From the IMG/VR virus record IMGVR_UViG_3300032164_000059, positions 1 through 26,933 of that record: a stretch of DNA of 26,933 bases; one strand, 5' to 3'. Position 1 is the first letter of the stretch. Each line of letters starts with the position of its first letter. The notes beneath the pieces are model-generated. The model did not search any database. It saw only the letters and a program-made list of their open reading frames with translations, and had not been told where the DNA came from. A program made the translations under genes and the position numbers. This DNA comes from a virus. Positions 8,139 to 14,152 of this stretch are shown one piece after another.

Positions 8139-11100
8139 ATGGACGTAGTGTTGCCTGCCGGAGACGCAACGAATCCGGTCAAGGAGGAGCGGGTCATTTC
8201 CGACGCTGAGAGGTCGCTTTCTCCGCTAGGGAATCTGATCTTTCTAGATCGCTACGCATGCAAGGATCAGGACCGCACACATCTGCGCCCGGGAGACGTA
8301 GTGGTGGCTTGTCCTGACCTGGCATCCCGCCAACGTCTCATCGGCCAGGTCAAGGAGATCCGCGACAACGCTCGGACGGTGCTCGTGCAGCTCGGTAACG
8401 AAGATCCGATCGAGATCCCCTCCGACCAGGTCGATCTCCCCGTTGAGACGCTGACCCAAGCTCATCGTCGGGTAGCACGCGCGGTCGCAGGAGCCGAGGG
8501 GGACAAGGCCGCCTTCTGGACGAAGGAGTTCTACACCACTCTCCAGGACTTCTCGTTTGTTCCCGCCGGCCGTATCCTGGCTGGAGCGGGCGTCGAGGAG
8601 AAGTTAACTCCAGGAAATTGCTATGTTCTTCCAGCTCCCAAGGATTCGCGCTCCGGGATCATCTCGACGCTCGACCGGATGACCGAGATCATGTCGAGGG
8701 GTGGCGGCGTCGGCATCCCCATCATGTCGTTGCGTCCTCGGTTCGGCATCGTCCGGGGGGTCAACGGGCGCTCCTCTGGTTCGGTAGCGTGGGGCGAGAT
8801 CTACAGCTTTGGCACTGGACTCATCGAGCAGGGCGGCTGCTTCGCGCCCGAAACGCGACTCTCGACCACCTGCGGGTTGCTCACGGCGGCTGAACTCGTA
8901 AGTCGCATCGAAGCCGGTGAAGCGATCTACGTCCACACCCATGTGGGGCTGCGTAGGGTTACTGCGCGGTTCCGCAACGGGTCGAAGACGCTGTTGCGTG
9001 TGACGACGGAGCGCGGTTACGAAGTCACCGTGACGCCGGAGCACAAGATCGCGCTGCTTGACGGTGCCAATATCTGCACCAAGTCGCTGCACGACCTATG
9101 TGTCGGCAACGAAATCCTCGTGCTTCTCGGTACGGGGACGGGCGGCGATCAGGTGACGCTCAGGCCGGTCGAGTACGAGCGGTCGATCATGTCCACGACG
9201 CTCAACACCGATGTTCGCTTGCCGACGGTGCTGGACGCTCGCCTGGCGTATCTCCTCGGGTACTCCTACGGGGACGGCTACGTGCAAACCGGGCGCAAGG
9301 TGACGTGGCAGGCGAACAAGGGGCTCAAGCTATCTGTAGCCGACAGCGACGCGACAACAGCTAATCGGCTAGAGGTTACGGTCAAGGATCTTTTCGGCAT
9401 CACGCCGACGTGGGAGTCGGGGGACGGGGCATGTCGCAACCTAGCGATCTACTCGCGGTTGCTTGTCACCTGGCTCGAACAGAATGACCTCCTCAAGGAG
9501 AAGACCGGGGAGATCCGCGTGCCTGATGCGATTATGCGCTCGCCCTCCGGCGTGTCCCTCGCGTTCGTAGCCGGTTACTTCGACGCGGACGGCTGCAACC
9601 GTGGCAGCAAGGGTGGCTACGGGTTCGACAGCATCAGCAAGGCGATGCTCCTAGATGTCCAGCGTCTTCTCGCCACCAACGGCATCCTTTCTCGGCTCTC
9701 CTCGCAGGACCACACCGAGCAGGGATGGAGTACGCTCTACCGCCTGTCTGTGACAGGGCGGACGCAGCGCACCCGCTTTGCGGCGATTGTTCCTGCTGAG
9801 AAGGCCGGTGATGACAACGGAGCACGGGACGAAAACACGTTTCCGTTCTCCGTCTGGACGGGGCTTGATGTACGCACGAAGTACCGTCAGGGCATCCATG
9901 ATGGTGTTTCGGACAGGATCTCGCGCGCTCAACTCGAACGGATTGCTGAGCGCCTCGAAGCGCACAACGAGGATGACAAGGCGAAGCAGGTTCGGGCGTT
10001 GCTGCGAACGCAGCCTGATCGAATCGTGTCAATAGAGCCCGCCGGTGAGAGGGAGACGTTCGATTTCGAGGTTGAGGGGGTGCATCTCCTGAGCGGTGAC
10101 GGCATCTACACGTCGAACTCGCGCCAGGGCGCGCTGATGCTGATGCAGTACTGCTGGCATCCCGACATCGTCGAGTTCATCACCGCCAAGATGGATCAGA
10201 AGCGGCTCACCAAGGCCAACATCTCCGTCGCCATCACCGACTCCTTCATGGAGGCCGTCGACACCGATAGCGACTGGGACCTGGTCTTTCCCGACACCTC
10301 GCATCCGGACTACAACGCGGAGTGGAACGGCGACCTCCCCGCGTGGAAGGCGGCGGGCCGTCCCGTCATCGTCCACCGGACCATGAAGGCGCGGGACTTG
10401 TGGAAGCTCATCGTCGAGAGCACGCACGCCTCTGGTGAGCCGGGGCTGTTCTTCGTCGACCGCTACAACAGCCAGTCCAACACCAGCTACTACCCCGAGG
10501 GGCACATCTACTGCTGCAACCCCTGCTGCTCTGGTGATACACGGCTCGCGACGCAATACGGCCTTGTACCCTTCAAGGAACTTGCCGAACGCGAGCTACT
10601 CCTCAAGGTGACCACCGACTTGCGAGCCGGTGAGAACAAGGTGACCACCACCATGGGGGGTGTCACTGTGCGCGCTGCTGTTCCTGCGTTCCTGACGAGC
10701 CCCTCTGCGGCGATCTACCGCGTCGAAACGCAGCATGGCTACTGCGTCAATGTGACCGAGCACCACGAGTTTGTGACTCCGGAAGGTCGGGCGGAGTTGC
10801 GCGATCTCCGTGTCGGTGACACGGTCTTCCTCCAATCTGGCGAGGGTCAGTGGGGTTTGGAAGTCGACTCTCCGGCGCTTGGAGCGCTCTTGGGTTGGAT
10901 GACTGGGGATGGTTGGTGGAGCGGTAAGGGCGAGGCTGTTTTGCGCTTCTATGGCGAGAAGGCGGCCATCGCGGAAGAGGTTGTCGCGCAGGCGCGTTTG
11001 CTGCTTCCACCAGGCTACACCCTCAACACCTATTCTGTTGGGCAAGTGGATGCCAGGGAGGCTTCTAGCGAAGCCCTGGCCCGCGTGTTCGCGGAGTACG

Positions 11101-13172
11101 ACTTCACTGCCGATACGAAGGGTCGGGTGCCGGAGATCGTCTTTCGTTCGAGTCGTAGGACCGTGTGTGCCTTCCTCCGTTTCCTGTTTGCTGCTGACGG
11201 TCAAGTGAACGTGAGTGGAGCGAAGTCCAGCAACACCTGTTCGGCTCGACTGAGTCAGAGCAACCTGGATCTGCTTCGGGATGTGCAGCTTCTTCTTCAG
11301 AACTTCGGCATCGTGTCAGCGATTTACCCTCGGCGCAAGGCGGGCTATCGCCGACTTCCTGATGGCAGGGGAGGCTTCAAGGACTACTGGTGCCAAGCGC
11401 AGTTTGACCTCGCCGTTGCCAAGGCCAACCTCTCCAAGTTCGCGGACACGGTTGGCTTTGCACGTCCTGAGCACGCCGAGAAGTACTTGTTGTGGGCACA
11501 GAACCGCAAGCGGGAACCATATCAGGAGACTTTCGAGGACGAGATCGTTTCCATTGAGTTTGTTGGCAACGAACCCACCTACTGCACGACGCAGCTCAGT
11601 CACCACACCATTGTTGTGAACGGGATTGTGACTGGTCAATGTGGTGAGCAGGGCATCCCGCCGTGGTCGGTCTGCAACCTCGGCCACCTCAACCTCACTC
11701 GCTTTCTCACTGGGAACGGCGTTTATGAGCCGGCTGATGTGGATTGGGACAAGCTCGGGCGGACGATCAAGACGGCTATGCGGTTCATGGATGACGTGGT
11801 CGACATCGCCTACTACCCCTTCGCTGAGAACGAGCGCCAGCAGCGCGCGGAGCGCCGGATCGGCCTCGGCACGATGGGCTTGGCCGAGGTGCTGATTCGC
11901 TGCCATGTCCGCTACGGGAACAACCCCGACTGTCTCCAGTTCCTCGATCGTCTCTTCAGCTTCATCGCCTGGAATGCCTACGGAGCTTCTGCCGACTTGG
12001 CTGAGGAGAAGGGGCCATTCACTCGCTTCGATTCTGAGAAGCTCTCTGTTCGGCCCTTCATCCACAACCTCCCGCAGGGGCTCCAGGCGTCGATCCGCAA
12101 GAAGGGGCTCCGCAACGCCGGCTGTCTGACCCAAGCGCCCACCGGCACCGTCGGGACGATGGTCGGCACCAGTACCGGCATCGAGCCTTTCTTTCGGTTC
12201 GAGTGGCTGCGCAACAGTCGGCTCGGCGTCCATAGGGAGTACGCGAACGTCTACGAGGAGTACCTGGAGGCGCACCCCGACCTCGACGAGAAGCGGGGTG
12301 GCATGTCGGAGCACGAGCGCGGCTCTTCCTCTGCTTTCCTGCCCTCCTGGTTTGTCACGACGGCCGAGATGACTCCCGAGGATCACGCCTATACGCAGGC
12401 GGCAATCCAGAAGTGGGTCGACAGCTCGATCAGCAAGACCTCCAACGTCCCGCACGACTACACCCCGGATCAGGTAGGCTCCTACTACCGCCTGCTCTAC
12501 TTGCTCGGCTGCAAGGGCGGGACGGTCTATCGGGACGGTTCCCGCGAGGAGCAGGTGCTCAATTCGCTCGGCAAGGCCGATTCGAGCGACCATGTGGTCG
12601 CAATTCCGGAACTGCTCCCAGTCCCTACCGGCATCTACGACGCCAAGTGCTCCTCTCTGCTCACGCCAGTCGGGAAGCTCTCTTCGAAGCTCTGCCTGTA
12701 TCCGGAAACCGGTGAGCCTTTCGAGGTGTGGCTCGAGGTATCGAAAGCTGGGTCCGAGGTCAACGCCATCCGAGAAGCCTTCGCTCGCCTGATGTCCCTG
12801 TTCCTGCGCCTCAACAGCCCCGTCCAAGCTAACCGACGGGTCGAGATGCTGGTGGAGCAGCTGGAGGGTCTGTCGGGGGGTAATCCGGTCGGATACGGGC
12901 CGGACCGTGTCCTGTCCTTGCCGGACGGTATCTCCAAGGGGCTCAGGATGGCCCTGGACGCCCTCAAGACTTCCTCCCCCACCCAACCCACCATCGAGGT
13001 CTTGGACGGCCCCACAGAGGCGGAGAACGCGTCCCAAGCCCCTGCCGCACCCCGGAACGGGAAGAACGGTCACCGGTCGGACTGCGATGTCTGTCCTAGT
13101 TGCCACCAGGCCGGTTTCTACCGAGTCGAAGGGTGTCAGAAGTGTGACAATTGCGGCTACTCCAAATGTTGA
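8139..13172 (+). CDS. nrdJ: Adenosylcobalamin-dependent (class II) ribonucleotide reductase precursor with two inteins
   Basis: Ribonucleotide reductase makes deoxyribonucleotides from ribonucleotides; the class II enzyme generates its thiyl radical with adenosylcobalamin and needs no small subunit. The 1677-residue precursor contains 878 residues of reductase and two inteins (residues 234-660 and 796-1167). Catalytic residues: redox pair C161 (in GNCYVLPAPKDS) and C1179 (VCNLGHLNL), and radical cysteine C1168 with E1170 and N794, which after splicing read NPCGEQ. The APTGT phosphate-binding motif is at 1333-1337. The C terminus has a cysteine-rich ribbon (C1649, C1652, C1655, C1666, C1669, C1672, C1677) typical of NrdJ. 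An SH3-like beta segment lies at about residues 48-100. ATG 8139 follows AGGGGG and GAGG. It sits inside the tail gene block, which is unusual. No NrdB-like partner is present in the window, consistent with class II. Confidence 0.95.
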   Translation: MDVVLPAGDATNPVKEERVISDAERSLSPLGNLIFLDRYACKDQDRTHLRPGDVVVACPDLASRQRLIGQVKEIRDNARTVLVQLGNEDPIEIPSDQVDLPVETLTQAHRRVARAVAGAEGDKAAFWTKEFYTTLQDFSFVPAGRILAGAGVEEKLTPGNCYVLPAPKDSRSGIISTLDRMTEIMSRGGGVGIPIMSLRPRFGIVRGVNGRSSGSVAWGEIYSFGTGLIEQGGCFAPETRLSTTCGLLTAAELVSRIEAGEAIYVHTHVGLRRVTARFRNGSKTLLRVTTERGYEVTVTPEHKIALLDGANICTKSLHDLCVGNEILVLLGTGTGGDQVTLRPVEYERSIMSTTLNTDVRLPTVLDARLAYLLGYSYGDGYVQTGRKVTWQANKGLKLSVADSDATTANRLEVTVKDLFGITPTWESGDGACRNLAIYSRLLVTWLEQNDLLKEKTGEIRVPDAIMRSPSGVSLAFVAGYFDADGCNRGSKGGYGFDSISKAMLLDVQRLLATNGILSRLSSQDHTEQGWSTLYRLSVTGRTQRTRFAAIVPAEKAGDDNGARDENTFPFSVWTGLDVRTKYRQGIHDGVSDRISRAQLERIAERLEAHNEDDKAKQVRALLRTQPDRIVSIEPAGERETFDFEVEGVHLLSGDGIYTSNSRQGALMLMQYCWHPDIVEFITAKMDQKRLTKANISVAITDSFMEAVDTDSDWDLVFPDTSHPDYNAEWNGDLPAWKAAGRPVIVHRTMKARDLWKLIVESTHASGEPGLFFVDRYNSQSNTSYYPEGHIYCCNPCCSGDTRLATQYGLVPFKELAERELLLKVTTDLRAGENKVTTTMGGVTVRAAVPAFLTSPSAAIYRVETQHGYCVNVTEHHEFVTPEGRAELRDLRVGDTVFLQSGEGQWGLEVDSPALGALLGWMTGDGWWSGKGEAVLRFYGEKAAIAEEVVAQARLLLPPGYTLNTYSVGQVDAREASSEALARVFAEYDFTADTKGRVPEIVFRSSRRTVCAFLRFLFAADGQVNVSGAKSSNTCSARLSQSNLDLLRDVQLLLQNFGIVSAIYPRRKAGYRRLPDGRGGFKDYWCQAQFDLAVAKANLSKFADTVGFARPEHAEKYLLWAQNRKREPYQETFEDEIVSIEFVGNEPTYCTTQLSHHTIVVNGIVTGQCGEQGIPPWSVCNLGHLNLTRFLTGNGVYEPADVDWDKLGRTIKTAMRFMDDVVDIAYYPFAENERQQRAERRIGLGTMGLAEVLIRCHVRYGNNPDCLQFLDRLFSFIAWNAYGASADLAEEKGPFTRFDSEKLSVRPFIHNLPQGLQASIRKKGLRNAGCLTQAPTGTVGTMVGTSTGIEPFFRFEWLRNSRLGVHREYANVYEEYLEAHPDLDEKRGGMSEHERGSSSAFLPSWFVTTAEMTPEDHAYTQAAIQKWVDSSISKTSNVPHDYTPDQVGSYYRLLYLLGCKGGTVYRDGSREEQVLNSLGKADSSDHVVAIPELLPVPTGIYDAKCSSLLTPVGKLSSKLCLYPETGEPFEVWLEVSKAGSEVNAIREAFARLMSLFLRLNSPVQANRRVEMLVEQLEGLSGGNPVGYGPDRVLSLPDGISKGLRMALDALKTSSPTQPTIEVLDGPTEAENASQAPAAPRNGKNGHRSDCDVCPSCHQAGFYRVEGCQKCDNCGYSKC
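8838..10118 (+). other. Intein 1 in the reductase, with LAGLIDADG homing endonuclease
   Basis: A 427-residue intein (precursor residues 234-660). It starts with Cys (CFAPETRL, block A) after extein IEQGG and ends TSN before extein SRQGALM; joining the flanks restores the conserved reductase QGG-SRQGA segment. Block B is TPEH (T299, H302). Two LAGLIDADG helices are visible: LAYLLGYSYGDG (from 369) and VAGYFDADG (477-485), each with the acidic residue needed for cleavage, so the nuclease may be active. The end (HLLSGDGIYTSN) has terminal Asn but Ser in place of the usual penultimate His. The +1 nucleophile is Ser. A counted 60-base line inside it is 60% G+C, close to the surrounding gene, so the insertion is not recent or has ameliorated. 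Confidence 0.93.
10524..11639 (+). other. Intein 2 at the reductase active-site cysteine, LAGLIDADG type, C-terminal Gln
   Basis: A 372-residue intein (precursor residues 796-1167). Block A is CCSGDTRLAT and the protein around it reads YCCNP / CCSGDT. The only placement that restores the reductase NPCGEQ active site is intein start at the first Cys of CCSGDT and +1 Cys at C1168. It therefore ends in GQ, with Gln instead of Asn and Gly instead of the penultimate His. Block B is TEHH (T873, H876). Two LAGLIDADG helices are LGALLGWMTGDG (from 914) and FLRFLFAADG (about 1012-1022). Block F is near HHTIVVNGIV. The catalytic thiyl cysteine itself is the splicing +1 residue. Confidence 0.92.
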
Positions 13173-13600: not shown

Positions 13601-14152
13601 ATGGCGGACGACATCGAGAAGGTTGTGTCGAAGGACCCTCGGGTAGCATGGACGCAGGCGGTGTGGGAGGCGTGCCGGTCACGGTGTTCCAACTGCGGCG
13701 GAACCGACAAGCTTCGGGTGAAGATGATTGTGCCCGAGGAGGCCGGCGGCAAGCTTGTCCCGTCAAATGGAGCCTTGCTTTGTCGGGCGTGCGAGATGGC
13801 TGCCGAGTCGACTCCGCATTCTGACACGACCTTGCGTCCGATCAACTTCTGGGTCAGCGAGCAGCTCTACAATTCGCTCCAGAGCAACGCTCGTGGGGGT
13901 TTCAACAGCATGGCGGCGTTGGTGCGCTACCTGATGGCGAAGTTCGTCACCGATGAGTCCCGTTTCGACGACCTCGACAAGTATCAGGACGCGGGCTCGG
14001 ACGTGAAGGTGAACGTCTGGGTTGAGACGGACCGCTACGCTAGCTTCAAGAAGATCGTGGACTCGCGCGGTCTCACCGTGACGGACGCCATCAAGGCGTT
14101 GATCCGCATGTACGAGGCGGAGGCCGCACCACTCGTTCGGAAGGAAGGATGA
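13601..14152 (+). CDS. Putative DNA-binding regulator: degenerate HNH/zinc module plus two RHH-like repeats
   Basis: A 183-residue protein with a clear ribosome binding site (GGACGGAG). Residues 25-68 resemble an HNH-type zinc fold: C29xxC32, a GGKLVPSNGALLC segment and C61xxC64, but the catalytic histidines of the HNH motif are absent (KMIVPEEAGG where a His-His-Ile-x-P is usual), so it is probably a binding, not cutting, module. Two ribbon-helix-helix-like units follow: strand INFWVSE at 81-87 and helices to 116, and strand VKVNVWVE at 135-142 and helices to 173; they align at offset 56 (NFWV, NVWV). A tandem pair could form the two-stranded sheet in one chain. It lies downstream of overlapping palindromes, so autoregulation is plausible. 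Its targets are unknown; it might also be a virion assembly protein. Confidence 0.6.
   Translation: MADDIEKVVSKDPRVAWTQAVWEACRSRCSNCGGTDKLRVKMIVPEEAGGKLVPSNGALLCRACEMAAESTPHSDTTLRPINFWVSEQLYNSLQSNARGGFNSMAALVRYLMAKFVTDESRFDDLDKYQDAGSDVKVNVWVETDRYASFKKIVDSRGLTVTDAIKALIRMYEAEAAPLVRKEG

Follow-up and report, generated by a model that had tools for sequence, protein, structure and literature searches.

An intein that ends in Gly-Gln and stands directly before what we take to be the radical cysteine of a class II ribonucleotide reductase (NrdJ) raises the question of whether, and how, such an element would be spliced out. The gene lies in an IMG/VR virus fragment of 26,933 nt, the whole of which is referred to here as the window; the fragment also has genes for a contractile tail (sheath, tube, tape measure, and baseplate). 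At positions 8139 to 13172, on the plus strand like every intein feature described below, an uninterrupted reading frame of 1677 aa encodes a NrdJ precursor with two in-frame inteins. The ORF matched the Pfam families Ribonuc_red_lgC (1.2e-95), Ribonuc_red_lgN, and TSCPD, and its best solved relative, with the joined extein segment as the query, was the T. maritima B12-dependent reductase (1xje, 1.5e-48). nrdJ sits in the tail module, with tail tube genes on one side and baseplate hub and tape measure genes on the other, an odd location for a nucleotide-metabolism gene. Directly downstream, a small gene at 13601 to 14152 gave weak HNH endonuclease and repressor-like matches and could be a free-standing homing gene beside the inteins. 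Intein 1 (CFAPET...YTSN, then SRQG; 8838 to 10118) was delimited by ORF reading and by an Intein_splicing stretch (267-649); it has a Ser-Asn end followed by a +1 Ser and likewise lacks the penultimate His.

Intein 2 comprises 372 aa (CCSGDT...VTGQ; residues 796-1167 of the NrdJ ORF) and occupies 10524 to 11639, as judged by ORF reading, alignment, AlphaFold2, and Foldseek. Its junctions read YCCNP, C796CSGDTRLATQYGL ... VVNGIVTGQ1167, C1168GEQGIPPWSVCNLG. The preliminary description had given the range 10524-11642, of which the start was right, as was the numbering of C1168, while the last position takes in the codon of Cys+1. It had also argued that the intein must run from the first Cys of CCSGDT to the Gln before C1168, since this restores NPCGEQ. 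That necessity fails, because a Cys stands at both intein ends and a cut one residue later (C796/C797 and C1168/G1169), with the radical cysteine supplied by the N-extein side, restores NPCGEQ too. The later cut would, however, leave Gly at +1, which cannot serve as a nucleophile, and Gln would no longer be terminal. In addition, wherever both ends of a same-site relative could be read (129 cases), NP is followed by a single Cys and position 2 is V, F, L, I, or W, and the block A motif of intein 2 aligned in register with the first Cys. Since a +1 Gly cannot act and the same-site relatives all show NP then Cys, we assigned the first Cys as Cys1 and give the later cut next to no credence. The proposed boundaries themselves, including the Gly-Gln end, were thus borne out by the ORF and by the comparison with inteins at the same NrdJ site that the preliminary description had called for.

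With these junctions, the N-extein ends in Cys(-3)-Asn-Pro(-1) (10515 to 10523), a Cys at -3 being present in 5 of the 129 relatives. Cys1, the predicted first splicing nucleophile in block A, is encoded at 10524 to 10526 and is directly followed by an unusual Cys2 (10527-10529), which none of the 129 shares. Block G, Thr-Gly-Gln (11631 to 11639), forms the C terminus of the intein, and Cys+1, the predicted second nucleophile, is Cys1168 (11640 to 11642). This residue aligned with Cys322 of Thermotoga maritima NrdJ (NPCGEQ versus NPCGE, the number being counted on the printed alignment), which is well established in this enzyme family as the thiyl-radical cysteine. Thus, as had been claimed, Cys+1 of intein 2 is the radical cysteine, and the insertion between NP and CGE places the element among the inteins of the NrdJ radical-cysteine site. 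The accompanying idea, that the insertion is protected because the reductase cannot alter this position, agrees with the general published picture of inteins at conserved sites (PMC2814812) but is not specific to intein 2.

The remaining motifs pointed to a full-length class 1 intein with a homing endonuclease domain. Block B is Thr-Glu-His-His (TxxH; 10755 to 10766), with T and H invariant across 25 aligned sequences, and block F is CTTQLSHH (11583 to 11606), which contains the F:4 Cys and the block F His by alignment. With Cys at position 1 in block A, TEHH in block B, and a C-terminal Gln followed by Cys at +1, intein 2 has the features of class 1, in which a terminal Gln is a documented alternative to Asn (PMC4031507). 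The penultimate residue is Gly rather than the usual, though not obligatory, His; this does not exclude class 1 membership, because His is also missing from 83 of 166 same-site inteins. A class 3 assignment was ruled out, since intein 2 retains Cys1 and has Phe rather than Trp at B:12, even though F:4 Cys and G:5 Thr (followed by G:6 Gly) are there. LAGLIDADG motif 1 (ALGALLGWMTGDG; 10872 to 10913) has its Asp at 10908-10910, invariant in the alignment, and corresponds to helix 127-138 of the model; motif 2 (11154 to 11198, with FLFAAD at its end) falls in the Pfam LAGLIDADG_3 match (4.6e-17), likewise keeps its Asp, and corresponds to helix 221-235. An AlphaFold2 model based on 25 sequences reached a pLDDT of 90.3 and a pTM of 0.91; its extein flanks and last residues were of too low confidence for active-site distances. 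Foldseek returned TliVMA, PhoVMA, and PI-PfuI as the best solved matches, and the two helices, both Asp residues, and a fold like that of PI-PfuI and I-DmoI indicated a LAGLIDADG homing endonuclease. When intein 2 was compared by sequence with solved structures, only chance-level matches were obtained, and the Intein_splicing profile scored below the cut-off on it (E 8.4e-5), the stretch of the ORF above the cut-off being intein 1.

The preliminary description had regarded the terminal Gln and the missing penultimate His as rare, which a survey of inteins at the same cysteine contradicted. A degenerate pattern (Q, CGE-N24-CNLG) matched 16 viral-contig stretches and 83 genomic ones; as it requires a fixed spacing to CNLG, the counts are lower bounds. 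Nine matches with TNQ, CGEQ were excluded as intact reductases in which Gln replaces Pro, and five more (L012, L111, L150, L157, and L166) as chance matches. There remained at least 85 Gln-ended inteins at the NrdJ radical cysteine (15 viral and 70 genome loci), along with at least 81 Asn-ended ones, the Asn form being counted in virus contigs only. A penultimate His was present in 39/85 Gln-ended and 44/81 Asn-ended inteins and absent from 46/85 and 37/81, respectively. The Gly-Gln end itself was found at seven of the 85 loci: two from Chloroflexus, one from a Synergistaceae bin, phage L008, and three near-identical phage loci (L010, L011, and L017). Separately, the nine intein-free genome loci whose NrdJ has a TNQCGEQ-like motif in place of TNPCGEQ around the radical cysteine (L109, L115, L125, L132, L139, L146, L167, L168, and L175) include several from Dojkabacteria/WS6 and related candidate-phylum bins. 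A literature search found no discussion of Gln-ended inteins at the NrdJ site. Thus, Gln-ended inteins, usually called exceptions, are common and clade-forming at this cysteine in viruses, bacteria, and archaea, and we consider this the most useful by-product of the analysis.

A tree was built from 89 of the same-site inteins after their two C-terminal residues had been trimmed. On it, Gln and Asn ends were strongly clustered, yet five changes between them were needed (six on a quick 95-row tree); the Gln end is therefore passed down within clades, with several switches along the way, rather than being an isolated occurrence. Intein 2, the intein of Chloroflexus islandicus, and that of phage L008 formed one clade (99/94), all with Gly-Gln, at identities to intein 2 of 45% (C. 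islandicus) and 40% (L008). The branch leading to intein 2 is long (0.85 changes per column), and no close relatives of it or of the downstream NrdJ extein were found in the virus contigs searched. A sample of 60 genomes from the order surrounding C. islandicus contained further inteins at this site; those that we read to their ends terminate in His-Asn. In both L101, the C. islandicus intein, and L008, the block F His is shifted by one residue toward the N terminus relative to other inteins, and intein 2 has a His at both positions.

Does intein 2 splice? The preliminary description had suggested that the terminal Gln and the lack of a penultimate His may make the reaction slow or conditional. 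Were its Gly-Gln end a sign of decay, splicing would be poor or absent and the phage reductase dead or weak, and the Pyrococcus PolII inteins, which splice slowly with their native Gln and faster with Asn (PMC4031507, PMC8175363), lend this reading some substance. Against it, the 1677-aa ORF is unbroken, the other catalytic and endonuclease residues are kept, and a Gly-Gln relative occupies the only reductase gene detected in C. islandicus. The draft assembly of that bacterium has one PF02867 gene, which bears the Gly-Gln intein at the same cysteine, and gave no match to the class III reductase (PF13597, NRDD). As its sole detected reductase gene is so interrupted, the C. islandicus intein evidently undergoes splicing in the cell, provided that the draft does not lack a second reductase. 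The organism offers a naturally occurring instance of DNA synthesis that apparently depends on the splicing of a Gly-Gln intein. Activity in a relative is no proof for intein 2, whose own branch is long and whose Cys2, Cys-3, and F:4 Cys correspond to Val, Thr, and Asp, respectively, in Chloroflexus. On balance, decay seems very improbable.

Rather, intein 2 is very probably an ordinary class 1 homing intein of full length that belongs to a lineage with Gln ends at the NrdJ radical cysteine and uses Gln cyclization; its splicing, chemistry, and nuclease activity are what we infer. Cys1 would form a thioester with the N-extein at Pro-1, with assistance from the block B Thr and His, and transesterification would pass the N-extein on to Cys1168. 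Cyclization of the terminal Gln to a glutarimide would then free intein 2, and an S-to-N shift would restore NPCGEQ and make the cysteine available for radical chemistry, the reductase being inactive until excision. By means of its LAGLIDADG domain, the gene would home into NrdJ alleles that lack the intein. Gln-ended inteins are described as following the same steps with Gln cyclization, and in the Chilo iridescent virus intein splicing is efficient with Gln and better than with Asn (PMC4031507).

The cysteines around the junctions (Cys-4, Cys-3, Cys1, Cys2, F:4, and Cys+1) raise the possibility of a redox gate, in which Cys1 or Cys2 would form a disulfide with Cys-3 or Cys+1 and the reductase would stay inactive until the cell is reducing. 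Besides the gathering of all six in one intein, precedents exist in the Gln-ended Pab PolII intein, whose Cys1-Cys+1 disulfide must be reduced before splicing (PMC8175363), and in an engineered disulfide including Cys1 that served as a redox sensor (PMC7765530). Conservation, however, does not indicate selection for a switch: Cys2 and Cys-3 occur in 0/129 and 5/129 same-site relatives, and the nearest ones, L101 and L008, lack Cys2, Cys-3, and the F:4 Cys alike. Because of these relatives, we do not favor the gate and regard it as unlikely. Across same-site inteins, Cys instead of Asp at F:4 was found in 0/37 with a penultimate His and in 15/23 without, in several lineages; the raw counts make a strong link, but independent pairs that differ in both traits number only about 2-4, too few for significance, and we note as a lead that the F:4 Cys may be tied to the missing His. 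There is perhaps a slim chance that His-less same-site inteins use the F:4 Cys for step coupling and Gln/Asn cyclization and that the junction cysteines of the phage make excision redox-sensitive. If true, such sensitivity would tie reductase activation to the thiol state that the reductase needs.

Among known systems, the ordinary class 1 intein proposed here most resembles the C. islandicus isl-2 NrdJ intein (L101, identified in the present survey), which shares the site and clade, has 370 aa, starts with CVTGDTRLHTQYGL, ends in LVTGQ before CGEQ, and carries LAGLIDADG motifs; it differs in being 45% identical, in its Val2, Thr-3, and Asp at F:4, and in a block F His shifted by one. The Mth RIR1 mini-intein interrupts an archaeal reductase at a like site (NP, C...HN, CGEQ) but is only ~134 aa long and ends in His-Asn. 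In class I enzymes the equivalent of the radical cysteine is, from what is known of the family, Cys382 in B. subtilis NrdE, and with it aligned the +1 Cys of the bnrdE (RIR1) intein of Bacillus phage SPbeta. That intein (SNL, CVTGET...IVTGN, CSEV; annotated in NC_001884) thus has the homologous radical cysteine of a class Ib enzyme at +1, a penultimate Gly, and VTGN then C, and differs in its Asn end, its NrdE host protein, and a similarity of ~25% over the aligned gene. The Chilo iridescent virus RIR1 intein, likened to intein 2 by description alone, also lies in a reductase, ends in Gln, and was shown to splice (PMC4031507), in that case in a class I enzyme of an insect virus. Insertion at the radical cysteine, a penultimate Gly, and a Gln end are therefore already on record, and intein 2 is a further example.
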